Positions 571-27,381 of a DNA stretch of 32,040 bases are shown in pieces; position 1 is the first letter of the stretch; every line of letters starts with the position of its first letter. Location: NCBI GenBank assembly GCA_021205305.1, contig JAJPXU010000145.1:1-32040 (forward strand), written 5' to 3'. This stretch comes from Lachnospiraceae bacterium. Lineage in GTDB: Bacteria > Bacillota > Clostridia > Lachnospirales > Lachnospiraceae. Position numbers and translations under genes: made by a program. Under the pieces are notes generated by a model. That model was not told where the DNA came from, did no database searches, and saw only the letters and a list, made by a program, of their open reading frames with translations.

Positions 571-587
571 CCATGCTTTCCCGCTTT
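556..587. terminator. Bidirectional terminator between convergent genes
   Basis: AAAGCGGG (556-563) pairs perfectly with CCCGCTTT (580-587). The hairpin overlaps the 3' end of the plus-strand gene at 184-570 and the stop of the minus-strand gene ending at 586. On the minus strand it is followed by TTTT, on the plus strand only by a short T run. Confidence 0.6.
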
Positions 588-1440
588 AATGACATCTGTG
601 GCTAGTGATTTGCCGAAGCAAATCAATGATTTCATGCTCGATCTCAGATGAAAAACCGTCCACGCTGGGGATGGGCTGTTTTGTGACACCGTCCACACAG
701 CCGAGCGCAACGATTCGGCAGAGGTAGCCGGATATGGTTTCATAAGAAGGAAAGAGCGGCTGTTCCTGCAGAAGATCCAGATAAGCGACCAGCGCATAGG
801 CCCCCCAGTTTGAGGTAGTAGCAATGATCAATTCATCGACCGTGATTTCGCAGGGGATGAGTGAAAGTTTTTCAGAAATTACATCTTTGAGGTTTCCCAT
901 CCCAATTTCGTTGCCGCCGTCGCCGATCCCGATGGTGAGAATATGGGCGGAGGAGGCAAGCTCAAACATGGTGTCAATGTGAGCAGTCTGCTCGGAGATA
1001 CTGACACCTCTCATGTTCGCGTATTCATGGTTCTGGTTTCTGCCGCAGCGTTCTACGGAAATCAGGCACACTGGGTGAAAGTGATCTATGAGACTCTGAT
1101 ACCAGGCTGTGTTTGCGTGTACTCCCACATAGAGGACAAAGATACCTTCCGGTTCAAACAGGCCGTCGCAGATGCGGTCTGTGATGATGATGGGGGTAAA
1201 TCCGAGCTTTTTAAGAGCCAGCGCGATGCTGAAAGCACCGGGCGGGCCGTCCGTTTCCGCATGCCCGGCCACATAAAACCCGGTCGTGAGAAAAACGGTC
1301 CCGCGCTCCAGCGAAAGAGGGCGCTCGGCGGCTTTTTTGCAGTAGGCTGTTTCAAGATATTCTTTTAGCTGTGACATCCCGCGTCCGGAGTAGCGCAGCA
1401 CAATGTCTTCGATGGTGTTTGACGGTCGGTTTGTGTTCAT
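586..1440 (-). CDS. DUF4392 / D-glutamate cyclase C-terminal (GLUCM_C) domain protein
   Basis: A 284-residue soluble protein of the DUF4392 family (PF14336), equivalent to the C-terminal half of animal D-glutamate cyclase DGLUCY, which converts D-glutamate to 5-oxo-D-proline. Seen directly: ETDGPPGA at residues 62-69, ERCGR near 130-134, and the glycine-rich motif GIGDGGNEIGMGN at about 171-183, which I recognise as typical of the family. The ATG is preceded by ATAGGAGAAA. It is the last gene of a minus-strand run containing a DUF1445 protein (the other DGLUCY half) and pxpABC, about 140 bases after pxpA. I infer a role in D-glutamate/5-oxoproline catabolism. Whether this domain alone is the cyclase is not known from the sequence. 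Confidence 0.8.
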   Translation of the reverse strand: MNTNRPSNTIEDIVLRYSGRGMSQLKEYLETAYCKKAAERPLSLERGTVFLTTGFYVAGHAETDGPPGAFSIALALKKLGFTPIIITDRICDGLFEPEGIFVLYVGVHANTAWYQSLIDHFHPVCLISVERCGRNQNHEYANMRGVSISEQTAHIDTMFELASSAHILTIGIGDGGNEIGMGNLKDVISEKLSLIPCEITVDELIIATTSNWGAYALVAYLDLLQEQPLFPSYETISGYLCRIVALGCVDGVTKQPIPSVDGFSSEIEHEIIDLLRQITSHRCH

Positions 1441-1582
1441 GCCCGTTTCTCCTATATCCTGCCTTGTCTGGTAATTATTTGTTACAAAAATCGGATCCTG
1501 CTGACAGCAAACATTGTCGGAATGTTATCGGTCACACTTTGGTTGATTTATCTTATCTTTGTCACCATAGTAATGCAAAGCA

Positions 1583-2362
1583 TCACTTTACACAGGCGAT
1601 CACATCGTCCATCGGCATGGGCGTAATGCCCTCCGCCTTAAGTGCATCGCGGATGCTTTTCGCGAAGGCAAGCGCTGCCGGATTGTCGCCGTGGATGCAG
1701 ACGGAATCCGCTTCCACCTCAATTTCCCGGCCGGTGATGGCAGTGACGGTGCCATATTTTACCATTTGAATGACACGGGCGAGTGCTTCTTCCCGGTTGG
1801 AAATGACAGCGCCCGGTTTGCTTCTGGCGACCAGGGAGCCGTCTTCTTCATACGCGCGGTCGGCAAAAACTTCCCGGGCGGCGCGAAGGCCGTATTTTTT
1901 TGCGGAGAAAACCAGCTGGCTTTTGGCGGGACCAAGTAAAATCAGGCTCGGATTCACCGCTGCGATGCCTTCGCAGATCGCGTCGGCAATGGCTGAATCT
2001 TTCACTGCCATGTTGTAAAGTGCGCCATGCGGTTTTACATGCTGTAATGTGACGTCGTTTGCCGCGCAGAACGCGTGCAGTGCTCCAATCTGATACACGA
2101 CGATGGCGGTGATTTCTTCCGCAGGCAGGCTCATATTGCGGCGGCCGAAGCCAACCAGATCCTGAAATCCGGGGTGTGCGCCGATATGCACCTGGTTTTC
2201 CTTTGCAAGACGTACGGTTTTCTGCATAACAAGCGGGTCTGAGGCATGGAAGCCGCAGGCGACGTTTGCAGAGGTGATATAGGGGAGAATTTCTTCGTCC
2301 ATCCCACATTTGTAGTTGCCGAAGCTCTCTCCGAGATCGCAGTTTAGATCAATGGTTTGCAT
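1583..2362 (-). CDS. pxpA: 5-oxoprolinase subunit PxpA (LamB/YcsF family)
   Basis: A 259-residue protein of the LamB/YcsF family. In bacteria PxpA, PxpB and PxpC together form the ATP-dependent 5-oxoprolinase that opens pyroglutamate to glutamate. Visible family motifs: DLNCDLGES at residues 5-13, NVACGFHASDP at 33-43, GAHPGFQD at 61-68 and HVKPHGALYN at 108-117. Length is normal for the family (about 250). The ATG has an upstream GGGAGGAAA site. It lies between the DUF1445 gene (73 bases upstream, with a palindromic repeat in the gap) and the DUF4392 gene. The grouping of ycsF, ycsI, kipI and kipA in Bacillus subtilis is the same association. Confidence 0.93.
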   Translation of the reverse strand: MQTIDLNCDLGESFGNYKCGMDEEILPYITSANVACGFHASDPLVMQKTVRLAKENQVHIGAHPGFQDLVGFGRRNMSLPAEEITAIVVYQIGALHAFCAANDVTLQHVKPHGALYNMAVKDSAIADAICEGIAAVNPSLILLGPAKSQLVFSAKKYGLRAAREVFADRAYEEDGSLVARSKPGAVISNREEALARVIQMVKYGTVTAITGREIEVEADSVCIHGDNPAALAFAKSIRDALKAEGITPMPMDDVIACVK

Positions 2363-2387
2363 AGTATTTCCTCCCAGAAGGTGTGGT

Positions 2388-2442
2388 TATTAACGGTTTA
2401 GAACAGCAGGCCACAGGTCTGGCTCTGAACGGTTATCAATAC
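2388..2442. repeat. Palindromic intergenic repeat copy between DUF1445 gene and pxpA
   Basis: Read on the minus strand this stretch runs from TAACCGTTCAGAGCC to CCTGCTGTTCTAAACCGTTA, the same layout as the copies at 22391-22456 and 27112-27165. It overlaps the last codons and stop of the DUF1445 gene, so part of the repeat is translated. Confidence 0.55.
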
Positions 2443-3230
2443 TTCAGTTCCGTATTTCGAATGTCGGTGATGAACATATGTCCCGGCGCGTGTGTGATTG
2501 CGAGCGATGGCTTCGATTCCATTACCACATTTTGCGGGGTGACGCCGCAGGGCCAGAAAACGGGGACTTCCCCGGCATGGATGGTCACCATATCGCCAAA
2601 ATCCGGATGACTGATATCGGCGATGCCGATGGCTTCCGGACATCCGATGTGGATCGGGGCGCCGTGGACGCGGGGCATGGCGCCGGTCACCTGGACGGCC
2701 CGCGGAACCAGCTCATAGGGGATGGGGCGCATGCTGACGACCATGCTGCCGTGAAAAATGCCGGCCGGGGTGCAGGGAATATTGGTGCGGTACATGGGAA
2801 CGTTGCGGCCTTCTTCGATATGACGAACAGGCACTCTTGCGTCGAGCAATTCCGCTTCAAAGGAAAAACTGCACCCGATCAGAAAGCTGACAAAATCCTC
2901 CTGCCAGAATTCGGAAACATCGGTGTATTCTCCGGCAAGAATACCATCCCGGAAAACACGATACCGCGGAATTTCGCGCGCGATATCCGCTCCGTCTGCG
3001 ATCTCTTTCAGGAAACGGCTGCCGGTATCACTGACCTCCAGAAGAGGGCAGGAGCGCGGGTTGCGCTGTGAAAACAGCAGAAAATCATAGGCGTAGGACG
3101 CCGGCAGTACGACCAGATTCGCCTGTGCGTATCCGGCGCACATTCCGGAGGTCTGTCCGCTGATCTGCCCATCGCGGATGCGTGCGCGCACTTCGCGCGG
3201 GGACATGGTGGTGTAATCCTCTATTTTCAT
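2436..3230 (-). CDS. DUF1445 / D-glutamate cyclase family protein (YcsI-like, 'putative hydro-lyase')
   Basis: A 264-residue protein of the PF07286 family, long annotated as putative hydro-lyase (B. subtilis YcsI) and equivalent to the N-terminal half of animal DGLUCY. Motifs seen: an N-terminal SPREVRARIRDG at residues 10-21, GYAQANLVVLP at 33-43, NPRSCPLLEV at 57-66 and FWPCGVTPQN in the C-terminal third. Length is normal (about 260). The ATG at 3230 has AAAGGAGT upstream. It sits 44 bases after pxpC and 73 before pxpA. In context, a role in making or handling 5-oxoproline from D-glutamate is likely. The exact reaction of the stand-alone bacterial protein is inferred. Confidence 0.88.
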   Translation of the reverse strand: MKIEDYTTMSPREVRARIRDGQISGQTSGMCAGYAQANLVVLPASYAYDFLLFSQRNPRSCPLLEVSDTGSRFLKEIADGADIAREIPRYRVFRDGILAGEYTDVSEFWQEDFVSFLIGCSFSFEAELLDARVPVRHIEEGRNVPMYRTNIPCTPAGIFHGSMVVSMRPIPYELVPRAVQVTGAMPRVHGAPIHIGCPEAIGIADISHPDFGDMVTIHAGEVPVFWPCGVTPQNVVMESKPSLAITHAPGHMFITDIRNTELKY

Positions 3231-3274
3231 GGAATGACTCCTTTGAATTTTGCTAACAGCTCGTCTGTTAGCAA

Positions 3275-4168
3275 TTACAGTTGCTCCTGTGCCGCCTCAA
3301 CCGTGATTTTTTGAAAACGCACAGTATACCCAGGCCGTACCTGAGCGAGCGCAGGTAAATCCGCAGTGCAGACCGTGGCGATTTTGGCATATCCGCCGGT
3401 CGTCTGGCGGTCAGCGAGCAGAATAATAGGCTGCCCCGCGGGTGTGACCTGGATGGAGCCGAATACGATGGCGTCAGAGACAATATCCGTCCCATGTCTG
3501 CTTTCAATGGCAGAGCCTGTCAGCCGGCAGCCCATGCGGTCGCTTTCCTGTGAAACCGTGTAGGCGTTTGTATAAAAGGTCTTCAGCCCCTCGTCCGAGA
3601 ACAGATCCTCCTGCGGGCCGCCGATCACGCGGACGGTAAGGTCCTCCGGGTATGTATAGGACGGCGCGGAACGGTCTGCGATCTCTTCATATATAACAGA
3701 AGAAATTCCCACCGGAAGCAGGTCGCCGGTTTTCAATGTGCGCCCTTCGAATCCGCCGATTGCGCATTTCAGGTTGGTGGAGCGGCTGCCGAGCACGATG
3801 GGAACATCGATGCCGCCGCTGAGGGCAAGGTAGCTTCTGCAGCCGGAAAGCGCGGTTCCTGCCATCAGGGTCTGTCCCTTTTTGACCGGAAACGGACGGT
3901 TCATTGGACAAGCGGCTCCGTCAAGCAGCGGAACCATATCCGCACCGGTGAGTGCCAGAATGGCGTCGCCTTCAAACTGATAAACGCCGCCGAAAAGAGT
4001 AAATTCCAGGACAGCCTCGCCGTGTTCATTGCCAACCAGATCATTGGCTGCCTGGTACGCGCGCGTATCCATTACGCCGGAACAGGGCATCCCAAGTGCC
4101 TGATAGCCGGTTCGTCCAAAATCCTGAACCGTAGTCAGTGCGCCGGGATTGAGTACGCGAATTGCCAT
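3275..4168 (-). CDS. pxpC: 5-oxoprolinase subunit PxpC (biotin-dependent carboxyltransferase-like, KipA family)
   Basis: A 297-residue protein of the PxpC/KipA family, one of the cyclophilin-like carboxyltransferase-type subunits of bacterial 5-oxoprolinase. Motifs: LNPGALTTVQDFGRTGYQ near residues 5-22, GMPCSGVMD just after, LALSGGIDVP in the middle, SDRMGCRL and DGRQTTGG-like ADRQTTGGYAKIA near the end. The frame stays open upstream to 4237, but the ATG at 4168 has an AAGGAGGC site seven bases upstream and matches the usual family start, so it is preferred. Only 19 bases separate it from pxpB, so the two are translationally close. PxpB and PxpC normally act as a complex. Confidence 0.93.
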   Translation of the reverse strand: MAIRVLNPGALTTVQDFGRTGYQALGMPCSGVMDTRAYQAANDLVGNEHGEAVLEFTLFGGVYQFEGDAILALTGADMVPLLDGAACPMNRPFPVKKGQTLMAGTALSGCRSYLALSGGIDVPIVLGSRSTNLKCAIGGFEGRTLKTGDLLPVGISSVIYEEIADRSAPSYTYPEDLTVRVIGGPQEDLFSDEGLKTFYTNAYTVSQESDRMGCRLTGSAIESRHGTDIVSDAIVFGSIQVTPAGQPIILLADRQTTGGYAKIATVCTADLPALAQVRPGYTVRFQKITVEAAQEQL

Positions 4169-4187
4169 GCATTTTGCCTCCTTATTT

Positions 4188-4913
4188 TCAGATTTCCAGC
4201 GGCCATTCCCCGCGCGTCTGCATCCGGCGGATGTCATAATAATCGCTGGAGTTAATCGGATAAAAACGGATAGTATCTCCCGCGCGGCAGAGCACAGGTT
4301 CTTCCCGCTCCGGATTATAAAAATCCAGCGGAGTGCTTCCGATCAGCCGCCAGCCGCCCGGTGATTCGAGCGGATATACGCCGGTCTGGTTTCCGCCAAT
4401 GCCGACCGCTCCTTTGGGGATTTTGACGCGGGGAGTGGAGAGCCTTGGCATGGCAATCCGCTCATCGAGTCCGCCCAGGTAGACAAAACCGGGCAAAAAG
4501 CCAAGCATGTAGACGCGGTATTCGGTTCCACTGTGGATAGCGATGATCTCATCCCGGTCAATTCCGGTATAGCGTTCCAGATCGGGCAGATCCGGCCCAA
4601 AGTGTGAGCCGTAGCAGCAGGGAATCTTAAGAACCCGGCCAGTGCCAGTCCTGGAAGACTGCGGAAGCTGTGCAAGCCGCAGGATTATTGATTTTAACTC
4701 GTCAAATTTCAGGATAGACGGCTCGTAAACGACCAGCAGAGAACGGAAGGTCGGTACGAGTTCCGTGATACCGGGGATGGACGCTTCCTGGATTCGTGCG
4801 GCGAGCGCATGGACGCGGTCGTTTATGGCCGGATCAATTTTGTCTCCGAATTCTGCTGCCAAAGCGCGGTCTCCGGCGGGCAATATTCGTACAGTTTCTG
4901 TCGTAGCTTTCAT
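4188..4913 (-). CDS. pxpB: 5-oxoprolinase subunit PxpB (KipI family)
   Basis: A 241-residue protein of the PxpB/KipI family, partner of PxpC in 5-oxoprolinase. Motifs: ILPAGDRALAAEFGD near residues 10-24, the Y-G-x-x-FGPDL segment in the middle, YRVYMLGFLPGFVYLGGL near 130-147, PRVKIPKGAVGIGGNQTGVYP-type region after it (typical of the family), and GGWRLIG near the end. Length is normal. The site upstream of the ATG is weak (AAAGGAT), and a 110-base gap with a short palindrome separates it from the aminotransferase gene. In B. subtilis KipI also inhibits the sporulation kinase KinA, but with this operon the metabolic role is more likely. Confidence 0.93.
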   Translation of the reverse strand: MKATTETVRILPAGDRALAAEFGDKIDPAINDRVHALAARIQEASIPGITELVPTFRSLLVVYEPSILKFDELKSIILRLAQLPQSSRTGTGRVLKIPCCYGSHFGPDLPDLERYTGIDRDEIIAIHSGTEYRVYMLGFLPGFVYLGGLDERIAMPRLSTPRVKIPKGAVGIGGNQTGVYPLESPGGWRLIGSTPLDFYNPEREEPVLCRAGDTIRFYPINSSDYYDIRRMQTRGEWPLEI

Positions 4914-5023
4914 GATTGAACGATATCCTTTGTATTATCTAAACTCTTATGCCCGATGCGCGGCTGCTGCCAAATATAAAAGTCTTCGCATCTATGCTTC
5001 GGCAGCCACTACAGCATGCTGTA

Positions 5024-5878
5024 TTAAACAGGTGCGCCGGGATTTGTCGCCTCATGGAATTCCGCGATCAGGGCCTCGCGGAGTTTCTCTAGCAGCTCCG
5101 GCTGTTTCCCGCCGACGGGTTTTCCATCAATTTCATTTGCCCACAGGCAGAGGTTGCTGGAGCTGGTTACAATTACTTCTTCCGCCGCGAACAGGTCGTC
5201 AAGCGTGAAAGCGGTTTCATTTACCGGAATGCAGAGCTTTTTGCACATTCGAATCAGATGCGCGCGGGCAATGCCCGGCAGGATCAGATTGTCTGTCGGC
5301 GCGGTGCGGAGCATACCGTCCTGTATAATATGAACGTTGCTGTGCGCACACTCGGTCACGCGTCCGCCCGGCCGGTAAAAAACAGATTCCTGGCATCCGG
5401 CTTCCTTCGCGCGCTGCGCTGCCATAACGGAAGGGATCAGGTTCAGCGTTTTGATGTTGCAGTGATAGAAGCGGGTATCCTCTGTTGTGACCAGTCGGAT
5501 CGGGTCTTTCCCGTCTGAGATCTCCTGATGCGTCAGGGTAATCCAGAGGTTTCCGGGACCATCTGTAAAAATATGATTGCGCTGTCCGGTGCCGCGCGTT
5601 ACCTGATAATAGACAAAGAGGTCGCCGCTGTCCATTTTGCGGACCAGATCATTCAGAAGGTCCTTCAATTCCACCTTCGTAACCGGCATCTGAATTTTCA
5701 GCAGTCCGGCGCTGTTGAAAAAGCGGTCAATATGTTCATCGAGCGCGAAAATGTGGTAATTGCGGCAGGGACCGGCATCGTACACACCGTCTCCGAACCA
5801 GCAGACCCGGTCATTCATCGGAATCGACATCTCTTCCAGTTCTCCGAATTTTCCATTATAATATCCGAGTGTTTTCAT
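5024..5878 (-). CDS. Class IV (branched-chain/D-amino-acid) aminotransferase, probably D-amino-acid transaminase
   Basis: A 284-residue PLP enzyme of fold type IV. The Schiff-base lysine is K143 in YHCNIKTLNLIPSVMA, very like the CDIKSLNLLPN motif of D-alanine transaminase. The family glutamate falls in the RVTECAHSNVHI segment near residue 174, and the N-terminal DRVCWFGDGVYDA matches the class IV start. D-amino-acid transaminase swaps D-Ala plus 2-oxoglutarate with pyruvate plus D-Glu. It is the first gene of the minus-strand operon with pxpBC, DUF1445, pxpA and DUF4392, so I infer it supplies or drains D-glutamate. The ATG has AAGGGAGGCGG upstream. 4-Amino-4-deoxychorismate lyase or branched-chain specificity cannot be excluded. 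Confidence 0.82.
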   Translation of the reverse strand: MKTLGYYNGKFGELEEMSIPMNDRVCWFGDGVYDAGPCRNYHIFALDEHIDRFFNSAGLLKIQMPVTKVELKDLLNDLVRKMDSGDLFVYYQVTRGTGQRNHIFTDGPGNLWITLTHQEISDGKDPIRLVTTEDTRFYHCNIKTLNLIPSVMAAQRAKEAGCQESVFYRPGGRVTECAHSNVHIIQDGMLRTAPTDNLILPGIARAHLIRMCKKLCIPVNETAFTLDDLFAAEEVIVTSSSNLCLWANEIDGKPVGGKQPELLEKLREALIAEFHEATNPGAPV

Positions 5879-5982: not shown

Positions 5983-6011
5983 ATTTTAGGAACGTTTGCG
6001 GAAATTGTCAA
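5983..6011 (-). promoter_or_regulatory. Sigma-A promoter of the minus-strand D-glutamate/5-oxoproline operon
   Basis: On the minus strand TTGACA (6011-6006) and TAAAAT (5988-5983) are separated by exactly 17 bases. The -35 box is perfect and the -10 differs from consensus by one base. It is the only strong minus-strand match I noticed in the 563-bp divergent region. Confidence 0.75.
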
Positions 6012-6154: not shown

Positions 6155-6183
6155 TTGACAGATCAAAAAGATTGGAGTATAGT
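6155..6183 (+). promoter_or_regulatory. Sigma-A promoter facing the livKHMGF operon
   Basis: TTGACA (6155-6160) and TATAGT (6178-6183) are separated by 17 bases. The predicted start is near 6190, leaving a leader of about 250 bases before livK at 6442. A terminator hairpin follows at 6208-6244. Confidence 0.75.
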
Positions 6184-6441: not shown

Positions 6442-7596
6442 ATGAAAATGAAAAAGTGGTTGAGTACGGCACTTGCGCTTTCCCTGGCAGCGACTGCGGT
6501 CGCTCCTATGACAGCGTTGGCGGAGGAGGAAGAAGATTACATCATCAAAGTTGGTGTGATCTGTGCGATGACAGGTGGTTCCGCAGTGTATGGCGAGGGC
6601 GCGCAGAACGCGATCAACATGGCGGTGGAAGAGATCAACGCGTCGGATTCCGAGTATACAATTGAAATCCTGAACAATGGGAATGTGGCAGATGACGCGA
6701 AGGACGCAACGGAAGCGGTGAACGCTTACAATTCGCTGATGGCGGAAGAGCCGGAGGCAATTGTTGGCTCCTTCTTCTCGACACCGACCCTGGCAATGGC
6801 AGAGCTGGCAGCCGACGATGGGATGCTTCTGCTGGCGACAGGCGCAACGAATGTGAATGTTACTTTGACCGGCGACACGATTTTCCGTAACTGCTTCATC
6901 GATCCGTTCCAGGGGGAGATGGCGGCGCAGTTTGCTTCGGAGCAGGGTTATACCTCCGCATACGTGATCTACGCGAAGGATGACGATTATTCTAACGGTC
7001 TGAAGGATGCATTTGTAGAAAGCGCGGAGGCGCTTGGCATTGAGATCGCGGGTGTCGCGGAGTGTACGACCACTGATACGGACTTCACTGCGCAGGCAAC
7101 CAACGCGGTGGCATCCGGCGCGGACTTTGTATTCTATCCATGCTTCCTTGATACGGTTCCGCTTCTGGTGCAGCAGGTAAGAGACGCTGGCTTTGAGGGC
7201 GCGATCATGGGCGGCGACGGCTGGGACGGCGCAGACACGACCGGTTATGAGGATTATTTTGACAACTGCTATTTCACAAACCACTATTCATCGGAAGATA
7301 CCTCTGAGTCGGTTCAGAATTTCGTGACAAAGTATACGGAAGCCTATGGCACAGACAGCCTGAATGCCTGCGCGGCTCTGTATTATGACGCGATGTACAT
7401 GCTTCTGCAGGCAGCGGAAGACGGCGGCGACTCCGATACCGAATCTCTGGTGGCAGGCATGACAGAGATGGAATTCAGCGGTGTCGCAGGTGATATTTAC
7501 CTTGATGAGAACGGCGACGCAATCAAGCCGGTGGTCGTAAATACCTATGAAGACGGCCAGATCAAGTGGCTGATGACCATCGAGCCGGCAGAGTAA
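6442..7596 (+). CDS. livK: Branched-chain-amino-acid-type ABC transporter substrate-binding protein
   Basis: A 384-residue extracellular type I solute-binding protein (Peripla_BP_6/LivK family). It starts with a signal peptide (KMKKW, hydrophobic core, ending APMTALAEEE at about residues 21-30), then IKVGVICAMTGGSAVYGEGAQNA-type family start, here read as VGVICAMTGGSAVYGEG near 36-52. ATGAT-like TGATNVNVTLTGD and a conserved C-terminal GVAGDIYLDENGDA fit the family. No lipobox cysteine is present, unusual for a Gram-positive binding protein. AGAGGAGGA lies before the ATG at 6442. It heads livHMGF, with a 225-base gap holding a hairpin. Substrate is unknown; the divergent operon makes D-amino acids, glutamate or 5-oxoproline candidates besides Leu/Ile/Val. 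Confidence 0.9.
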   Translation: MKMKKWLSTALALSLAATAVAPMTALAEEEEDYIIKVGVICAMTGGSAVYGEGAQNAINMAVEEINASDSEYTIEILNNGNVADDAKDATEAVNAYNSLMAEEPEAIVGSFFSTPTLAMAELAADDGMLLLATGATNVNVTLTGDTIFRNCFIDPFQGEMAAQFASEQGYTSAYVIYAKDDDYSNGLKDAFVESAEALGIEIAGVAECTTTDTDFTAQATNAVASGADFVFYPCFLDTVPLLVQQVRDAGFEGAIMGGDGWDGADTTGYEDYFDNCYFTNHYSSEDTSESVQNFVTKYTEAYGTDSLNACAALYYDAMYMLLQAAEDGGDSDTESLVAGMTEMEFSGVAGDIYLDENGDAIKPVVVNTYEDGQIKWLMTIEPAE

Positions 7597-7695
7597 GGAC
7601 ATATGCGTCTGGCGGTGCAGGGGTGAAATGAAACCCTGAAAGGCATTCCGGCGCAGCCTGACAGAAATGCCGTGTTCGCTGAGAACAGGAATAAA

Positions 7696-7722
7696 GCCCC
7701 GTCATAGTATGGATGGCGGGGC
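7696..7722 (+). terminator. Hairpin between livK and livH (partial terminator or mRNA stabiliser)
   Basis: GCCCCGTCAT (7696-7705) pairs over ten bases with ATGGCGGGGC (7713-7722), followed only by GTTT. A weaker GGCATT/AATGCC hairpin lies just upstream. Such structures between a binding-protein gene and its permease genes usually keep the binding protein in excess. Confidence 0.55.
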
Positions 7723-7821
7723 GTTTCCTGTCAGAGCGCAGCCCCCGCGCGAAGCGCATCAGAATGGGCGAAGCGACCTGCATTATTTCCTGTCGGAACA
7801 AGTGAGGAGAGGTGAAAAAGA

Positions 7822-8709
7822 GTGTCGATATTCATACAGAGTTTAATTAATGGGTTGAACCAGGGTGCGATATACGCGCTGATCGCGCTCGGATATACCA
7901 TGGTGTACGGCATTTTGCGTATGATTAATTTCGCACACGGCGATTTTATCATGGTGGGTGCCTACACCCTGTTTTATACCGTGCCGATGATGGTAAATCA
8001 CGGGATGCCAGCGTGGCTGGCCGTGTTTGTGGCGATTGTCGTGTGCGTGATTGTAGGCGTTCTGGTTGAGCGCATTGCCTACAAGCCGGTACGGAATTCC
8101 GGTTCCATATCCGCGCTGATCACCGCTCTGGCCATGAGTCTGTTTCTGGAAAACCTGGCGATGGTTCTTTTTGGCGGGAATCCGAAAACCATCTCAAAAA
8201 TCTTTGACCTGCCGATGATTGAGCTTCTGGGAGCAAAGATTCAGGTGAAATACTTGCTGACGCTGGGAATCGGCCTGGTGATCATGGTGGCGCTGACGCT
8301 GTTTGTGCGGATGACGAAGATTGGAAAAGCCATGCGGGCAGTGCCGCAGGATCGTGAAGCGGCGACCATCGTGGGAATTAACGTAGACCGGATTATTACG
8401 GTCACGTTCGCGATTGGTTCCGCACTGGCGGCGGTGGCCGCGCTGATGTATTGCTCGACCTATCCGCGGGCGACGACGGATATGGGGACGATGATGGGCA
8501 TCAAAGCCTTTATCGCGGCTGTACTTGGCGGAATCGGTATCATCCCGGGCGCGATGCTCGGTGGGATATTGATTGGACTGATCGAGATCTTCGTCAAAGT
8601 GTACCTGGCGCCCGGCTGGTATGAGGCGATCACCTACGCGATTCTGATTGTGGTGCTTTTGATCAAACCATCTGGTATTCTGGGCAAGAATGTCAGCGAG
8701 AAGGTCTGA
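7822..8709 (+). CDS. livH: Branched-chain amino acid ABC transporter permease LivH
   Basis: A 295-residue inner-membrane permease with about eight hydrophobic segments. The N-terminal GLNQGAIYALIALGYTMVYG (residues about 11-30) followed by INFAHGDF is the LivH signature, and TGVNVDRI-like VGINVDRII with FAIGSALAA marks the cytoplasmic coupling region. It starts with GTG at 7822 after GAGGAGAGG, giving the usual LivH N-terminus. It forms the membrane channel with LivM and overlaps no neighbour; livM begins 16 bases downstream. Confidence 0.93.
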   Translation: MSIFIQSLINGLNQGAIYALIALGYTMVYGILRMINFAHGDFIMVGAYTLFYTVPMMVNHGMPAWLAVFVAIVVCVIVGVLVERIAYKPVRNSGSISALITALAMSLFLENLAMVLFGGNPKTISKIFDLPMIELLGAKIQVKYLLTLGIGLVIMVALTLFVRMTKIGKAMRAVPQDREAATIVGINVDRIITVTFAIGSALAAVAALMYCSTYPRATTDMGTMMGIKAFIAAVLGGIGIIPGAMLGGILIGLIEIFVKVYLAPGWYEAITYAILIVVLLIKPSGILGKNVSEKV

Positions 8710-8725
8710 GGGAGGAGTTGAGAAT

Positions 8726-9724
8726 ATGCCAAAGAAAATAAAAAGAAATTATCTCATCAACCTGATTGGCCTCATCCTGCTGTTTCTGGTCTTTTACGCG
8801 GTTTTCGAATCCGGAATCTTTGGGTCAAGAACCAATTATTTCATGGGAATCGCAACGACGGCCTGCTATACCATCATTATGGTTACCTCGCTGAACCTTC
8901 TGGTCGGCATTCTGGGTGAGTTTTCCCTGGGACATGCGGGCTTTATGTCGGTTGGCGCGTACGCCTCGGCAATCTTTACGAACGCGCTGGTGGATTCCGG
9001 CATGCCGCGTCTTCTGCTTTTTATCCTGGCACTTCTGATCGGCGGGATTGCGGCAGCCATTACGGGCGTTCTGGTCGGGATTCCGACGTTGAAGCTGCGC
9101 GGCGATTATCTGGCGATCGTCACCGTTGCGTTCGCGGAAATTATCCGGGTGGCCTTTACTAATTTTGAGATCACCGGCGGCGGCCGGACCATGTCCGGTA
9201 TCACCAAGCTTTCGAATTTCTACTGGGTATATTGGGTGATGGTGGTCTGCGTCGCTTTCATGTACATGTTTATCCGTTCCCGCTTTGGGCGCACGGTAAA
9301 AGCGATCCGCGAAGACTATATCGCAGCGGCCGCTTCGGGCGTAAACGTGACCTTTTACAAGGTGCTGGTGTTCACGATTTCTGCCTTTTTCGCGGGCGTG
9401 GCCGGGGCGGTCTATGCGCATTACATTACAGCTATGATTCCGACGACGTTCAACTTTAATTATTCAGCGGAATTTCTGACAGAGGTGATTATCGGCGGAA
9501 CCGGATCTATGACGGGTTCTGTGATTGGAGCCGCTTTCCTTTCCATCCTGCCGGAGATGATGCGGAGCTTTGCTACCTACCGCTATTTGGGATACGCCAT
9601 TGTCCTTGTCCTGATTATGATCTTTCGGCCGAAGGGTGTCTTCGGCGGATGGGAATTTTCGCTCACCGGTGTATTTTCGGGCCTTCGAAAAAGGGGAAGC
9701 AAATCCGGAAAGGGGGACGAGTAA
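8726..9724 (+). CDS. livM: Branched-chain amino acid ABC transporter permease LivM
   Basis: A 332-residue membrane permease pairing with LivH. Family motifs: SLNLLVGILGEFSLGHAGF near the first third, GVLVGIPTLKLRGDYLAIVT in the middle, TGGGRTM, and the coupling segment FGRTVKAIREDYIAAAASGV. The frame is open from 8690, but ATG 8726 has GGAGGAG (8711-8717) at good spacing and is preferred. The stop codon at 9722-9724 is directly followed by the ATG of livG at 9725, so the two genes are translationally coupled. The C-terminal charged tail of about 20 residues is unremarkable. Confidence 0.92.
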   Translation: MPKKIKRNYLINLIGLILLFLVFYAVFESGIFGSRTNYFMGIATTACYTIIMVTSLNLLVGILGEFSLGHAGFMSVGAYASAIFTNALVDSGMPRLLLFILALLIGGIAAAITGVLVGIPTLKLRGDYLAIVTVAFAEIIRVAFTNFEITGGGRTMSGITKLSNFYWVYWVMVVCVAFMYMFIRSRFGRTVKAIREDYIAAAASGVNVTFYKVLVFTISAFFAGVAGAVYAHYITAMIPTTFNFNYSAEFLTEVIIGGTGSMTGSVIGAAFLSILPEMMRSFATYRYLGYAIVLVLIMIFRPKGVFGGWEFSLTGVFSGLRKRGSKSGKGDE

Positions 9725-10513
9725 ATGGGCGCAGAAAAGAAAAATGTTCCCGTACTGCGGGCGTCTCATCTGGGGATTACGTTTGGCGGCCTGAAAGCCG
9801 TGGATGATTTTAATATGGAGATTGGCCAGTCGGAGCTGGTGGGTCTGATCGGGCCGAACGGTGCCGGAAAAACGACGGTTTTTAACCTGCTGACCGGTGT
9901 TTATCAGCCGACGGAGGGCGCGTATTACCTGAATGGCGAAAAGATGAACGGCAGGAAGACCTATCAGGTCGTAGAGGCTGGGATTGCCCGCACCTTCCAG
10001 AACATCCGTCTGTTTAAAAAGCTGACCGTCCTCGAAAACGTCAAGGTGGCAATGAATAAGGATATGAAATACTCGCTTCCGGCCGCAATTTTTCGGCTGG
10101 GCGCTTACTGGAAAGAGGAAAAGGAAACCGATGAGCGGGCAATGGAGCTGCTGAAAATTGTCCATCTGGAGGATAAGGCGGATTATGTGGCGGAGAATCT
10201 CCCTTACGGACAGCAGCGAAGACTGGAAATCGCGCGCGCACTGGCAACCGGCATGAAGCTGCTTCTTCTGGATGAACCGGCGGCCGGTATGAATCCGGTA
10301 GAGACCGCGGAGCTTCTGGAAATTATCAATAACATTCGCTCCGGCTTTGGTATTTCGGTGCTTCTGATTGAGCATGATATGTCTCTTGTCATGAAAATCT
10401 GTGAGCGCATCCAGGTGATCGATTATGGGGAAACCATTGCATGCGGCTCACCCGAAGAGATCGCGAATAACCCGCGCGTGATTGAAGCGTACCTGGGCAA
10501 GGACGACGACTGA
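9725..10513 (+). CDS. livG: Branched-chain amino acid ABC transporter ATP-binding protein LivG
   Basis: A 262-residue ATPase driving LivHM. Walker A is GPNGAGKTT near residues 39-47, the signature is LPYGQQRRLEIARALA, and Walker B is LLLLDEPAAGMNP followed by LLIEHDMSLVM. The IARTFQNIRLF segment is typical of LivG. It begins on the base after the livM stop and is followed 14 bases later by livF. Confidence 0.95.
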   Translation: MGAEKKNVPVLRASHLGITFGGLKAVDDFNMEIGQSELVGLIGPNGAGKTTVFNLLTGVYQPTEGAYYLNGEKMNGRKTYQVVEAGIARTFQNIRLFKKLTVLENVKVAMNKDMKYSLPAAIFRLGAYWKEEKETDERAMELLKIVHLEDKADYVAENLPYGQQRRLEIARALATGMKLLLLDEPAAGMNPVETAELLEIINNIRSGFGISVLLIEHDMSLVMKICERIQVIDYGETIACGSPEEIANNPRVIEAYLGKDDD

Positions 10514-10527
10514 GGGGAGGCGGGCAA

Positions 10528-11232
10528 ATGTTAGAGATAAAGGATTTGTATGTCAATTATGGGGCAGTAGAAGCCATCAAAGGCATTAGCTTTTACGTGA
10601 AGCCGGGAGAAATTGTGACGCTGATTGGTGCGAACGGTGCGGGGAAAACGACCACGCTTCATACGATTTCCGGTCTGGTGAAGGCGAAGAGCGGTTCTAT
10701 TACCTATAATGGAACGGATCTGTTAAAGACGGAGCCGTCCAAAATGATTTCGCTGGGAATTGCGCATGTGCCGGAGGGACGGCATGTTTTTCCGGAGATG
10801 ACGGTCGAGGAAAACCTGGAGATGGGCGCGTACAGCGGAAAGGATAAGAGTGTGATCGAAGCCTCCATGAAAGATGTCTTTGAAAAATTTCCACGCCTTC
10901 AGGAACGCCGCAAACAGCTGGCCGGAACGCTTTCCGGCGGCGAACAGCAGATGCTGGCGGTCGGCCGCGCCCTGATGGGAAAGCCGGGCATCATCCTCAT
11001 GGATGAACCCTCGATGGGACTCTCGCCGATACTGGTAAAAGAAGTCTTTTCCATCATTCAGGAGATTCACGCGGCGGGAATCACAGTGCTCCTCAATGAG
11101 CAGAACGCAAAAATGGCACTGTCTATCGCGGACCGCGCCTACGTGCTGGAGACCGGTACCATCTCGATCAGCGGGGACGCGAAAGAACTGCTGCAGGATG
11201 AGCGCGTGAAGAAAGCCTACCTGGGGCAGTAA
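10528..11232 (+). CDS. livF: Branched-chain amino acid ABC transporter ATP-binding protein LivF
   Basis: A 234-residue ATPase forming a heterodimer with LivG. Walker A GANGAGKTT near residues 35-43, VPEGRHVFPEMTVEENLEMG typical of LivF, signature LSGGEQQMLAVGRALM, and Walker B IILMDEPSMGLSP. GAGGGGAGG precedes the ATG at 10528. It is the last transporter gene of the operon. Confidence 0.95.
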   Translation: MLEIKDLYVNYGAVEAIKGISFYVKPGEIVTLIGANGAGKTTTLHTISGLVKAKSGSITYNGTDLLKTEPSKMISLGIAHVPEGRHVFPEMTVEENLEMGAYSGKDKSVIEASMKDVFEKFPRLQERRKQLAGTLSGGEQQMLAVGRALMGKPGIILMDEPSMGLSPILVKEVFSIIQEIHAAGITVLLNEQNAKMALSIADRAYVLETGTISISGDAKELLQDERVKKAYLGQ

Positions 11233-11268: not shown

Positions 11269-11913
11269 ATGGGAAAGAAAAATTATGCGCTCTGCATCAC
11301 CAGAACCTGCGGCTCCGGCGGTACAGAGATTGGGAAAATGCTCGCGAAACAGCTTGGAATTGACCTTTATGACCGCAAGCTTCTGCGTGTGGCGTCGGAT
11401 GATTCCGGGATCAATGAGGAGCTGTTTGCGAGAGCGGATCAGGATACGAAGAAAACGATTTTATACAAGGTTTCAAAATCGGTCTATAACGGAGAGAAAA
11501 TACCGCCGGAGAGCGGCAACTTTCTCTCAGACCGCAACCTGTTCGAGTTTCAGGCGAGGGTGCTGCACGGGCTCTTAAAGAAGGAAAGCTTTGTGGTGCT
11601 TGGACGCGCGGCGGATTTTGTCCTCGCCGAAGAGCCAACCGCGATCAGCATTTTTCTGACTGCGTCGCCCGAAGCGTGCTTTCAGCGGGAGATGGAGCTG
11701 CTGCAGTCCGATGAGCTGGCTGTGAACCGCCATATCCGCAGCATCAACAGCTACCGCAGCGATTACTACAAATATCATACCGGGAAAAAGTGGAAGAATG
11801 TCGAGAACTATGATCTGTGTCTGCGCACGGACGTTCTCGGGTATCAGGGCTGTGTGGATGTGATTGTCAACTATCTGGAGACAAGGCTGGGAGGCAAGGC
11901 CGCGCGAAAGTGA
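11269..11913 (+). CDS. Cytidylate kinase-like family protein
   Basis: A 214-residue P-loop protein of the cytidylate-kinase-like family (PF13189). The N-terminal ITRTCGSGGTEIGKMLAKQL (residues about 9-28) is the family P-loop region, then DLYDRKLL. VVLGRAADFVL near the middle matches the second conserved block. It lies 36 bases after livF with an AGGAGGAG site, so it is probably cotranscribed with the transporter. Its substrate is not known; members of this family are often annotated by similarity only. True CMP kinase (Cmk) is usually longer and differently arranged. Confidence 0.82.
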   Translation: MGKKNYALCITRTCGSGGTEIGKMLAKQLGIDLYDRKLLRVASDDSGINEELFARADQDTKKTILYKVSKSVYNGEKIPPESGNFLSDRNLFEFQARVLHGLLKKESFVVLGRAADFVLAEEPTAISIFLTASPEACFQREMELLQSDELAVNRHIRSINSYRSDYYKYHTGKKWKNVENYDLCLRTDVLGYQGCVDVIVNYLETRLGGKAARK

Positions 11914-12171: not shown

Positions 12172-12759
12172 TTATGCCAGAAGCTGCAGCATGAAAGGAA
12201 GGATCAGCTCATAGGTAAAAAGGATGCCGATGACGAAGCAGGCCAGATCAGAGAGGATAACGGCCAGAAAGACCATTTTTTTCTTTCGCTTTAAATCCGG
12301 CTGACTGAAAGCCCAGATGTGGTAGATGATGATTGGGAGCGAAATACATCCGCTGATGGCGAAAGAAATGCTGTACTGCTGACGCAGCAGCTGCTGCGGA
12401 GTGACGGAAGCGAGCTCGTAGCCATAGCTGGCGGCCATGGTATTCAGAAAGCTGATGATATTCTGCGAGAAAAACAGCGCGATGACAAACGCGATCACCG
12501 CACAGAAGACACAGATGGCCACCCGGGAGAGCAGCTCGCGCACCCGCACGGACGTATAGGTAGATGAGGGTTCCTCATCCAGCCATTTGGAAAAATCCAT
12601 TTTCTTGTCATTAGAAGCGCTGCTTTTGCTGTTCGGGCTTTTATCGGTATTTTTTTTGTTTTTACCAAACATACCTGCGAACTTGGGAATCTGGCTCGGA
12701 CCGAAAATAAGAATGAGGATTGCGAGAATAATAAGCAGTTCTGTTGTTCCGAATTTCAT
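12172..12759 (-). CDS. TatA-TatC fusion with truncated TatC part
   Basis: A 195-residue membrane protein. Residues 1-35 are TatA/E-like: one membrane helix with LLIILAILILIFGPSQIP, including the FGP hinge, and a short amphipathic stretch. Residues 36-60 are a Ser/Lys/Asn-rich linker. From about 70 on it is TatC-like: RELLSRVAI, TPQQLLRQQYSISFAISG, LPIIIYHIWAFSQPDLKRKK, then a third hydrophobic segment ending TYELILPFMLQLLA. TatC normally has six membrane segments and about 240 residues; here it stops after the third. I found no continuation in another frame downstream. Tat exports folded, twin-arginine proteins. This may be a remnant or a specialised minimal form. No other tat gene is in the window. 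Confidence 0.75.
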   Translation of the reverse strand: MKFGTTELLIILAILILIFGPSQIPKFAGMFGKNKKNTDKSPNSKSSASNDKKMDFSKWLDEEPSSTYTSVRVRELLSRVAICVFCAVIAFVIALFFSQNIISFLNTMAASYGYELASVTPQQLLRQQYSISFAISGCISLPIIIYHIWAFSQPDLKRKKKMVFLAVILSDLACFVIGILFTYELILPFMLQLLA

Positions 12760-13521: not shown

Positions 13522-13884
13522 ATGGATAACAGAAATGACCAGATTCGGATTGTGCAGGAGACAGTTGCCGGCAAGGAAATCACGCTGGCGCATGTGATGG
13601 GAGGTCCCTCACCGATTATTTATCAGAAGCTGGGGATGAATCCGGCGATTGATTATGGCTCATCCGCGATCGGCATTATGAATCTGACGCCGCCGGAATC
13701 CGCGGTGATTGCCTCGGATATTGCTGTGAAGAGCGGGGATGTCTACCTGGGATTTGCGGATCGCTTTACCGGTACGCTGATAGTATCCGGGGATATTGCG
13801 GATGTGACGAGTGCGCTGACGGAGGTATTGCGGTATTTTCGGGATGAACTCCATTATGTGGTATGCCCTCTTACGAAGAGATAG
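13522..13884 (+). CDS. EutS-like microcompartment shell protein (first copy)
   Basis: A 120-residue circularly permuted BMC-domain protein of the EutS/PduU type, a hexameric shell component of bacterial microcompartments. Family features seen: VAGKEITLAHVMGGP near residues 15-29, GIMNLTPPESAVIASDIA near 51-68, VYLGFADRFTGTLIVSG near 74-90, and the terminal VCPLTK. Length is normal (about 110-120). The ATG has TAGGAGA upstream. A second EutS-like gene and an EutP-like gene follow, but no ethanolamine or propanediol enzyme. So the shell family is safe but the compartment content is unknown. Confidence 0.9.
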   Translation: MDNRNDQIRIVQETVAGKEITLAHVMGGPSPIIYQKLGMNPAIDYGSSAIGIMNLTPPESAVIASDIAVKSGDVYLGFADRFTGTLIVSGDIADVTSALTEVLRYFRDELHYVVCPLTKR

Positions 13885-13981
13885 GGATATTCTGCGGCTG
13901 GAAGTTCGAAGCAGGACAGAAGGGCATTTCCAGATGGGTTATGGCAGGTTGGAAAGGAAGCAGCGATCCGGAGAGGCGTCT

Positions 13982-14413
13982 ATGGACAGAAAAATTACCA
14001 GAGAAGAACTCCTTCGGGAGATTTTTCATGATTATGATACGCGAAAAGACGGGGAACCGCTGCGGCTTGTGCGTGTTCGGGTGCCGAGCCGGGATGTGAG
14101 TCTGGCTCATCTGACTGGTGTGTCGTCGCGGGAGGTCTATCAGACCCTCGGCTTACATATTGGTGTTCATGAGGGAGAAGATCACACGGGAGATACGCTG
14201 GGATTCCTGAAATTTACGCCCTGGGAAGCGACGGTGGTGGCTGCGGACATCGCGATCAAGAATGGCAATGTGGAAATTGGATTTCTTGACCGTTTTTGCG
14301 GAACCCTGATCCTGACCGGGCCATATGCAGAAGTTCGCTCTGCGGTAGAAAGCGTGGTTACTTTTTTCCGGGATGATTTGCATTTCCCGGTATGTGACAT
14401 TACGGAGAATTGA
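13982..14413 (+). CDS. EutS-like microcompartment shell protein (second, extended copy)
   Basis: A 143-residue EutS/PduU-type shell protein. DVSLAHLTGVSSREVYQTLG, GFLKFTPWEATVVAADIA, VEIGFLDRFCGTLILTG and the end FPVCDIT parallel the first copy closely. It has an added N-terminus of about 30 charged residues. The frame is open from 13844, but ATG 13982 follows GGAGAGG at good spacing and is preferred; this leaves 97 bases after the first gene. The two paralogues may form mixed hexamers. The stop at 14411 nearly touches the ATG of the GTPase gene. Confidence 0.87.
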   Translation: MDRKITREELLREIFHDYDTRKDGEPLRLVRVRVPSRDVSLAHLTGVSSREVYQTLGLHIGVHEGEDHTGDTLGFLKFTPWEATVVAADIAIKNGNVEIGFLDRFCGTLILTGPYAEVRSAVESVVTFFRDDLHFPVCDITEN

Positions 14414-14414
14414 G

Positions 14415-14918
14415 ATGAAAAAACTATTCCTGATGGGAAGAAGCGAGGCGGGAAAAACCTCTCTGGCGCAGGTGATGAAGGGAGAAACACTTCATTACCA
14501 GAAGACGCAGTATACTTTTGCGGAAGAAGACATGATTGACACTCCCGGAGAATATGCGGAGTCGAAGCAGGTCGGGGTTGGCCTGGCCTGTTTTTCGTTT
14601 GAGTCGGATGTGGTAGCACTTGTGTGTGCGGCGGATGAACCGTTTACGATATTCACGACAAACTGCAATGCCTTTCTGAATCGGCCGCTGATTGGGATTA
14701 TTACAAAGATTGATTCGCCGTATGCGAATGTCCCGATGGTTCGTCAGTGGCTGGAAAACGCGAACTGTGAGCGGATTTTTCTGATCAATAATGTCACCGG
14801 CGAGGGTCTGGATCAGCTGCGGGACTATCTGGAGGGAGAGCCGGAGAAGATCACACTCGAAGAGGCAAAAGCGCGACAGAGGCTGGGGCTGCGTGACTGG
14901 GATGATGGGCGTACCTGA
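14415..14918 (+). CDS. EutP/PduV-like GTPase
   Basis: A 167-residue small GTPase of the EutP/PduV family. P-loop GRSEAGKTSL at residues 8-17, DTPGEYAE as the switch II region, ITKIDSPYANV as the NKxD-like box, and NNVTGEGLDQLRDYL near the C-terminus. EutP/PduV proteins associate with microcompartments; their exact role is unsettled (acetate kinase activity has been reported for EutP). The ATG at 14415 lies one base after the preceding stop, so it is translationally coupled to the shell gene. Confidence 0.88.
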   Translation: MKKLFLMGRSEAGKTSLAQVMKGETLHYQKTQYTFAEEDMIDTPGEYAESKQVGVGLACFSFESDVVALVCAADEPFTIFTTNCNAFLNRPLIGIITKIDSPYANVPMVRQWLENANCERIFLINNVTGEGLDQLRDYLEGEPEKITLEEAKARQRLGLRDWDDGRT

Positions 14919-25351: not shown

Positions 25352-26524
25352 GTGGGGTACTATCTGAATAGCACACAGGTATACTCACTTTATGAAAGTG
25401 AGACGAAAAAGCCATACTTTGTAGATAAAACAGCCATGCTGAAAGAACTGAATCCGTTAGTGGAAGAAGGAAAGAACCATATCTGCATCACCCGGCCGAG
25501 ACGTTTGGCAAGTCAGTGATGGCGGCGATGGTTGGCGCTTTCTTTAGCAAGGGGATTGACAGCAGCCGCATTTTTGATTCCTTGAAGATAGCGCAGGATT
25601 CTCAGAAAAGTTCGGTTGGGTCAGTAGCAGCCGATGAATCATTGGACTATCGGTAGTATATGAATCAGTATAATGTGATTTATATTAATTTTATTAATCC
25701 TGCCAATTTAAGCAAAAGCTATGATGACTTTATAAGTCGCGTGGAAAAGCCGCTGACGAGGGACTTACAGCGGATTTTTCCAGAGGTTGATTTTTGGGAG
25801 GGTGCTTCTCCGATAGAAGATATGGCTCTGATTCATGAGGAAACGGGGGCGAATTTTATCCTCATATTTGACGAGTGGGACTGTATCTTCCACAAGTCTT
25901 ATACTTCGAATGAAGACAGAAAAAGCTTTATCAACTGGCTTGCGGCCATGACGAAGGATACAGGTTATGTCGCTTTAAGCTATATGACAGGAGTCCTTCC
26001 GATTGCGAAATACTCAAGTGGTTCCACAATTAATAACTTTCAGGAATATACAATGGCCACGGACGACCTGTTCAGTGAATATTTTGGATTCTCAGAGGCC
26101 GAGGTTGACGTGCTTTACGCCAGGTATCAGAAAAGGACTCTGCATTGCGAGATGGCAAGAGAGGATTTGAAATACTGGTATGATGGTTACCACACTCCTT
26201 CTTCCGAGCGGATGTACAATCCAAGATCCGTGGTAGAAGCGCTCACGCGCAACCGTATCCGGAGCTACTGGACAGCAACGGGCACCTATGGTGAAATAGC
26301 CACGTACATTGCAAATGACCGTGCTGATGTGAAAAAAGAAGTAGCCCTGATGGTCGCCGGAGAGGGCGATTGCCCAGATCAAAGATCGGAACTATATTCT
26401 CAAATACAGGGGAAAGATGGCGGAGAAGAAGCGTCATAGCGGACGGGTTTTGCTAGTCGGGATCGGGTATGACAAAAAAGAGAAAGAGCATCACTGTAAA
26501 ATAGAAATTGTACAGAGTGTATAG
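25352..26524 (+). pseudogene. Second broken DUF1703 AAA-ATPase/nuclease gene
   Basis: It begins with GTG 25352 after GGGGAGG and reads GYYLNSTQVYSLYESETKKPYF-type N-terminus, then is broken three times. A one-base loss near 25502 (CGTTTGGC where the other copy has CGTTTCGGC) shifts the frame. A TAG at about 25654 replaces the GAG found in the first copy. After LMVAGE (about 26355) an internal deletion of around 150 codons joins, in another frame, to AQIKDRNYILKYRGKM and GRVLLVGIGY, ending at TAG 26522. The P-loop-like RPRR and Walker B ILIFDEWD are still recognisable, but most of the nuclease domain is gone. Confidence 0.8.
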
Positions 26525-26584
26525 TGTAGGATTGTCATTCGCTTATTTCACGAAACGTCGGTTTTATGGCACAAATGGTAGGGG

Positions 26585-27067
26585 TTGCTCGCACGAATAG
26601 TTGTGCCGTATGACGGCAGCCTGTTCTTCATCAAAAACGGCCTGATTGATTTTGATGCAAACGAACTCTGTCTGTATGAGGACGTGTGGTATTACGTATC
26701 CCTGGGGCAGGTACAGCTGCAGTACACGGGACTGGCGATGCACGACGGCGCGTGGTTCTACATCACCGACGGCATCTTGGACACCACGGTAAACGGCCTG
26801 ATCCCATACGACGGCGAGCGCTTTCTTTTCGCCGCCGGCCGGCTGGTAAGCGAGCACAACGGCCTGTGGCTGAATGCCGCGTCCATCGGCGGGGACAGGA
26901 AATGGTACTTCCTGGCCGAAGGCAGGGTCTGCAGCGTATCGCAGGTCGTGATGTATGACGGGGCATGGTTTGTGGTAAAGAACGGGATTTTTGACAGCAG
27001 CTATAACGGGACAATCGAGTACGATGGGGCGACGTTCAAAGTGGTGAACGGGCAACTCTACGGGTAA
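26585..27067 (+). pseudogene. Fragment of a cell-wall-binding repeat protein
   Basis: 160 residues made of about six repeats with the pattern YDGxWFxIxNGxxDxxxNG, for example YDGSLFFIKNGLIDF, HDGAWFYITDGILDT and YDGAWFVVKNGIFDS. Such repeats occur at the C-terminus of secreted clostridial surface proteins. The frame starts at a TTG with no ribosome binding site, directly after an in-frame TAG, and has no signal peptide or catalytic domain. It is best read as the 3' remnant of a larger surface gene. A short stand-alone protein cannot be fully excluded. Confidence 0.6.
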
Positions 27068-27111
27068 TCTCCAATACGATTCTAAAAATGCGGAGTAATT
27101 GGCTACCGCAT

Positions 27112-27165
27112 TGATTCGTTCCGAAACGGAACGGCGACCTGCTGTTTGGATCGTTACAAAATTTG
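27112..27165. repeat. Copy of the palindromic repeat
   Basis: GATTCGTTCCGAAACGGAAC is followed by GGCGACCTGCTGTTTGGATC and GTTACAAA, the same layout as 22391-22456 but diverged at the left end. Confidence 0.45.
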
Positions 27166-27210
27166 CGAAGACATAATAGAATAGGAAAAAATACAACAGG
27201 AAAAGAAACA

Positions 27211-27287
27211 GGCTCCCGGTACGCTTCGGCGTATCAGGAGCCTTTTGCAGTCTTATGTGCAGGGTCGCGAGAGGTATTTTCCGGTTG
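27211..27287 (+). terminator. Terminator hairpin followed by a conserved repeat tail
   Basis: GGCTCCCGGTACGC (27211-27224), loop TTCG, and GCGTATCAGGAGCC (27229-27242) form a 14-pair stem with one mismatch, then TTTT (27243-27246). The following GTGCAGGGTCGCGAGAGG (27257-27274) and TATTTTCCGGTTG match 29124-29154. A promoter-like pair TTGAAT (27285-27290) / TAATCT (27308-27313), 17 bases apart, lies immediately after and may serve the DUF1703 gene. Confidence 0.6.
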
Positions 27288-27381
27288 AATTATAGAGAAT
27301 ATCGTGGTAATCTATACGTAAAGGAAAAGTGTAAATTCGTATACGGCCAGGTGAAACTGGCAAAATGGGGAGGTGCAGAAA

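Follow-up and report, generated by a model that had tools for sequence, protein, structure and literature searches.

A six-gene bacterial locus uniting DUF1445 and DUF4392 proteins with a PxpABC-type 5-oxoprolinase and a D-amino-acid-transaminase-like enzyme recurs across phyla and may convert D-amino nitrogen into L-glutamate

Contig JAJPXU010000145.1 of a Lachnospiraceae bacterium (GCA_021205305.1; 32,040 nucleotides, analyzed whole and referred to below as the window) is one complete contig of a 3.1 Mb genome in 173 contigs. At 586..5878 it carries six minus-strand open reading frames (ORFs), which encode, in order, a class IV transaminase, PxpB, PxpC, a DUF1445 protein, PxpA and a DUF4392 protein. 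This six-gene grouping is common to at least four named phyla. From the sequences we would give an even chance to the proposal that the locus turns D-amino nitrogen into L-glutamate at the expense of ATP, with its enzymes acting in series. The six genes are:

5024..5878, minus strand: class IV (fold type IV) pyridoxal phosphate (PLP) transaminase, D-amino-acid-transaminase-like (PF01063 Aminotran_4, 154.7 bits)
4188..4913, minus strand: PxpB, 5-oxoprolinase subunit (PF02682 CT_C_D, 255.8 bits; TIGR00370, 206.5 against a cut-off of 145.55)
3275..4168, minus strand: PxpC, 5-oxoprolinase subunit (PF02626 CT_A_B, 321.8 bits; TIGR00724 above cut-off)
2436..3230, minus strand: DUF1445/YcsI-like protein, putative 5-oxoproline racemase (PF07286 D-Glu_cyclase, 236.3 bits)
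1583..2362, minus strand: PxpA, 5-oxoprolinase subunit (PF03746 LamB_YcsF, 357.8 bits; NF003814, 381.5 against a cut-off of 226)
586..1440, minus strand: DUF4392/GLUCM-like_C metal-site protein, putative D-glutamate cyclase (PF14336, 257.2 bits)

The gene identities given in the initial annotation hold, with Pfam matches well above cut-off for all six ORFs. NCBIfam agrees for PxpA, PxpB and the PxpC-type domain, so that all three 5-oxoprolinase subunits are present, and for DUF1445, where the match is named "putative hydro-lyase"; the DUF4392 protein has zero NCBIfam matches. Because PxpC falls below the strict equivalog NF045499 (258.5 versus 500 bits), the predicted complex is best named PxpABC-type. 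The layout is operon-like, as had been proposed: the ORFs are co-directional, with intergenic distances of 110, −50, 44, 73 and 142 bases (none above 142). The PxpC ORF opens at 4237, although a start at 4168 is likelier (the protein would begin MAIRV..., and a ribosome site supports it), in which case the PxpB/PxpC overlap (−50) disappears.

DUF4392 is uncommon: PF14336 is above cut-off in 10 of 150 same-family genomes and in 38 of the 398 genomes of a phylum sample (window's own included in both). A co-occurrence survey, as the initial annotation had proposed, used the best 80 of at least 552 DUF4392 relatives, ranked by likeness to the window, plus 20 further stretches, with the six genes sought by BLAST. 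Three loci (L125, L134, L135) were removed as duplicates and one further DUF1445-DUF4392 pair (L131) was left out of the counts, giving 96 loci (97, and 34 pairs, if L131 is included). The transaminase is present in 27 of these loci (the clusters), a share inflated by the ranking on likeness; 33 hold DUF1445 and DUF4392 only (the pair loci), 32 hold DUF4392 alone on the available DNA, and four have pxp genes but yielded no transaminase (L074, L088, L136 and L077, a fusion locus in which PxpA and DUF4392 are one protein). The pxp genes occur in 30 of the 96 loci and both pxp genes and transaminase in 26 (Fisher 3e-18); several loci are near-copies (e.g. L045, L046, L048) and not independent, so Fisher values overstate. 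Short contigs hide genes both in clusters (L045, L054, L085, L091, L122, L127, L136) and in DUF4392-alone loci (L052, L073, L100, L101, L104).

The grouping is thus not unique to the window's genome. Record titles assign 21 of the 27 transaminase loci to a phylum: Bacillota (12), Spirochaetota (five), Pseudomonadota (two), Actinomycetota (one) and Chloroflexota (one, a doubtful label). Seven complete gene orders were found, namely the window's, that of Treponema (with PxpB and PxpC fused, as checked in L048 and L050), and those of L121, L061, L117, L132 and the divergent L062 (Eggerthellaceae); an additional genome, G440, holds all six genes in the L061 order. In a quick DUF4392 tree with some long branches, loci with the transaminase are scattered (they fall in the main group and at L121-L123, L132 and L117/L119), and the starred branches force at least seven context changes, so the association arose or persisted repeatedly. 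In one locus titled Thermoflexaceae (L049), a doubtful label, the cluster genes share 52 to 79% identity with the Lachnospiraceae-like ones of the window.

The closest solved match of the window transaminase is the Bacillus D-amino-acid aminotransferase 1daa (E 1e-45). The two share a sequence family and the pocket residues Y, R-x-H, K and E, which in the window protein are Y33, R100, H102, K143 and E176, with K143 aligning with the PLP lysine. The tyrosine and R-x-H are the carboxylate-binding residues of D-specific members. The likening of the K143 motif to that of D-alanine transaminase is borne out by K143 and the D-specific pocket residues. In contrast to 1daa, the window transaminase is set among D-glutamate and 5-oxoproline genes and falls below the equivalog cut-off; its best NCBIfam match, TIGR01121 (D-amino-acid transaminase), scores 215.9 bits against 277.45, and we therefore call it D-amino-acid-transaminase-like only. 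R-x-H, K and E are conserved in all 27 cluster transaminases and Y in 26 (it is unreadable in the truncated L122). A transaminase in L109, 7 kb away and outside any cluster, is without R-x-H and Y.

Some of the transaminase loci carry accessory genes. A LIV-type transporter (binding protein plus permease homologues) is present in eight of 27 versus none of the 69 others, where one pair locus (L113) has a distant binding-protein homologue with no matching permease. One homology group of alanine racemases follows the set in five of 27 loci versus 0/69 (L045, L046, L048, L050, L119; Pfam-checked in L045, L048 and L119), and one homology group of Lrp/AsnC regulators shows the same distribution, 5/27 versus 0/69 (L044, L051, L071, L119, L126; checked in L044, L119 and L126). 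L043 (Dorea phocaeensis) has a Na+:alanine symporter gene ahead of the set (1/27), bringing clusters with alanine genes to six of 27, and these racemase and symporter genes suggest that alanine may be a common amino donor. Other cluster neighbors differ; examples are a citrate synthase gene (L044) and genes for PLP-dependent enzymes (L047, L051).

In the proposed route the transaminase would make D-glutamate from 2-oxoglutarate, with D-alanine or another D-amino acid as the amino donor, as its signature residues imply. D-glutamate would be converted to 5-oxo-D-proline, most probably by the metal-site protein DUF4392 (the reaction is reported for the fused mouse DGLUCY); DUF1445 would invert the ring carbon to give 5-oxo-L-proline; and PxpABC, whose reaction is known elsewhere, would open the ring with ATP to yield L-glutamate. 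The ATP-dependent opening would pull the preceding steps forward, for a net conversion of D-alanine, 2-oxoglutarate and ATP into pyruvate, L-glutamate, ADP and Pi, with L-alanine as the input where alanine racemase is present. A scheme running from D-alanine and 2-oxoglutarate through D-glutamate and 5-oxoproline to glutamate had been put forward in the initial annotation. With the D-transaminase signature and the alanine genes, the genomic data lend good support to the pathway idea, and we infer the functional steps for these proteins. The stereochemical step that the earlier scheme left open would, hypothetically, be assignable to DUF1445. The associated suggestion, that the route serves to feed on D-amino acids from peptidoglycan, is plausible; the input could instead be L-alanine.

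In the initial annotation DUF1445 and DUF4392 together make up D-glutamate cyclase ("both halves"), a wording that the survey does not support. Among the 397 other genomes of the phylum sample, DUF4392 occurs in 38 (including G370, below the Pfam cut-off), DUF1445 in 61 and both in 28 (Fisher 5e-18). DUF1445 is over-represented with DUF4392 (28/38 versus 33/359 others), and the two are fused in animal DGLUCY and adjacent, without pxp genes, in the 33 counted pair loci. All three observations would suit two subunits of one D-glutamate cyclase, with PxpABC taking 5-oxo-D-proline or an unlinked racemase inverting it, an arrangement that we regard as possible but rather doubtful. Each protein is common without the other: 10 of the 38 DUF4392 genomes are without DUF1445, 33 of the 61 DUF1445 genomes are without DUF4392, and 11 of 18 genomes from DUF4392-alone loci have no DUF1445 (18 of the 32 such loci were covered). 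Within about 1.5 kb of DUF1445, at the 29 best-scoring of 63 matches (window's own left out), a pxp gene is found in 23, DUF4392 in five and the transaminase in none. DUF1445 is thus usually with pxpABC without DUF4392, and DUF4392 is often without DUF1445, which makes "both halves" doubtful. In addition, PxpABC acting on the D form would give D-glutamate back in a futile ATP cycle, and the cluster PxpA proteins form no lineage of their own. We propose that the "both halves" wording should yield to enzymes in series, with DUF1445 the likely inverter. Among the pair loci, 23 of 33 are Chloroflexota by title, and pxp genes were not found in their available DNA.

A more specific form of the series proposal, which we offer tentatively and at well below even chance, has DUF1445 racemizing 5-oxoproline without a cofactor and DUF4392 acting by itself as the D-glutamate cyclase. 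The lactam would be closed, flipped and reopened with ATP, making a one-way, oxygen-independent D-to-L route by which anaerobes would collect D-amino nitrogen. DUF1445 has two cysteines, C120 and C228, which are invariant in 42 of 42 sequences and lie at strand-helix joints; no racemase is in the match list of its fold comparison, a list that excludes nothing. In two-cysteine racemases such as MurI, DapF and proline racemase, a pair of catalytic cysteines faces the substrate from either side. DUF4392 has the six acidic metal ligands and the fold of the TON_0340/DUF4392 metal protein. That this fold resembles manganese phosphoesterases weighs against a cyclase, and the cluster might instead handle a glutamate-like or phosphorylated compound, not free D-glutamate, with DUF4392 as a manganese phosphatase. 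We consider this quite improbable, since mouse DGLUCY turns over D-glutamate and DUF4392 is found with D-transaminases and with MurL-like plus MurD genes.

The MurL-like context offers independent, limited support for DUF4392 acting on D-glutamate by itself. In L063 (3237-6852) and L068 (10001-13739), MurL-like and MurD genes, probably concerned with D-glutamate, lie directly after DUF4392; the MurL matches in L063, L068 and L047 score 200 to 272 bits, far short of the 700 required by the strict NCBIfam cut-off, and are therefore named MurL-like. MurL and MurI were sought in 38 locus genomes (for 19 of the 32 DUF4392-alone, 16 of the 27 transaminase and three of the 33 pair loci). A protein query finds a MurL-like gene in 12/19 DUF4392-alone, 2/16 cluster and 0/3 pair genomes, and MurI is above cut-off in 0/14 MurL-like genomes versus 15/24 of the remainder. 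MurD2/MurL is described as a route in bacteria without D-glutamate-forming genes (Xanthomonas; PMC8788868, available part). Wall-freed D-glutamate could presumably not be racemized there, so a lone D-glutamate-removing enzyme would be sensible. The same query, which works in 14 of the 38 locus genomes, matches none of the 398 phylum genomes, including the window's own and the 10 with DUF4392 without DUF1445, and an NCBIfam search, run without a positive control, likewise gives 0/398. The MurL-DUF4392 link is therefore not general and holds for DUF4392s near the window's. MurD2/MurL is also a different pathway, outside the six-gene set and with MurL unmatched in the window's genome. MurL-like genes occur in Clostridia, Bacteroidota, Omnitrophota and Rokuibacteriota records, which is broader than the genera listed in the available part of PMC8788868.

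The MurI data bear on a further alternative, in which the transaminase supplies the cell wall with D-glutamate or D-alanine and the remaining genes remove surplus D-glutamate. D-transaminases can provide wall D-glutamate (PMC8788868, available part), and the cluster genomes L070, L117, L119 and G395 show neither MurI above cut-off nor MurL. We nevertheless hold such a role to be unlikely, as MurI is above cut-off in 11/16 and 8/10 cluster genomes in two sets (three genomes being in both, and the window's own included) and as co-expressing source and sink would be wasteful.

The window shares both Pfam domains, DUF1445 (PF07286) and DUF4392 (PF14336), with animal DGLUCY (9030617O03Rik / C14orf159). 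DGLUCY fuses them, whereas in the window they are separate ORFs with pxpA between; the bacterial genes are moreover joined by 5-oxoprolinase and a D-transaminase, and each domain also occurs alone in bacteria. Niehaus (2017) reportedly placed pxpABC and ycsI in one operon. Mouse DGLUCY converts D-glutamate to 5-oxo-D-proline, according to the available part of PMC5339696. As in the window, pxpABC and ycsI (DUF1445) stand together in the B. subtilis ycsG/pxp operon (PMC10448178), which is described with the manganese importer ycsG; the accessible part of that paper names no DUF4392, D-transaminase or alanine gene. Human GLUCM homologues in gut bacteria are given as six split and none full-length (PMC11580864), and the part of that source available gives no transaminase, pxp context or pathway for the split homologues. 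In the literature searched, which covered few subscription papers and some sources in part, there is no description of the six-gene set and, beyond this split GLUCM table, nothing on the cluster. The set is one of known parts in a new variant arrangement. If the proposal is correct, amino acids of the cell wall could serve as food in the absence of oxygen, and bacteria of the gut and rumen could draw on D-amino acids independently of oxygen-linked oxidases. It would also assign a function to DUF1445, often seen with 5-oxoprolinase, and separate roles to the two domains of the human mitochondrial enzyme. A racemase would explain the wide company of DUF1445 and 5-oxoprolinase.

The initial annotation did not include a divergent LIV-type ABC transporter at 6442-11232, which probably imports amino acids. 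The features upstream of the six genes are:

5983..6011, minus strand: tentative promoter-like site toward the six genes (11/12 matches)
6155..6183, plus strand: tentative promoter-like site toward the transporter genes (11/12 matches)
6442..7596, plus strand: LIV-type substrate-binding protein (PF13458, 175.1 bits)
7822-8709 and 8690-9724, plus strand: LIV-type permeases (PF02653 twice)
9725-10513 and 10528-11232, plus strand: LIV-type ATPases (PF00005 twice)
11269..11913, plus strand: cytidylate-kinase-like protein adjoining the transporter (PF13189)

The two promoter-like sites are the strongest found and point away from each other in the interval that separates the six genes from the transporter; both are tentative because such sites are no more numerous than in shuffled sequence. 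A homologue of the cytidylate-kinase-like gene adjoins the transporter in L041; in L121 (4912-5556) and L123 (8925-9593) a homologue separates the transporter from the transaminase, and in these two loci transporter, cytidylate-kinase-like gene and six genes share one strand.

Elsewhere in the window, a single minus-strand ORF (12172-12759) joins a TatA/B/E segment to the first part of TatC (positions 4-126 of a 208-position profile); the remainder of TatC is absent from the frame. Two adjacent plus-strand ORFs look alike by eye, and the second carries a BMC shell domain. A PduV/EutP-like GTPase follows them (13522-14918); no microcompartment genes beyond these were noticed among the ORFs listed for the window. 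At 25660-28992 (plus strand), an ORF with a partial AAA-ATPase_like match, below cut-off, lies upstream of a longer ORF with AAA-ATPase_like and PDDEXK_9 domains.

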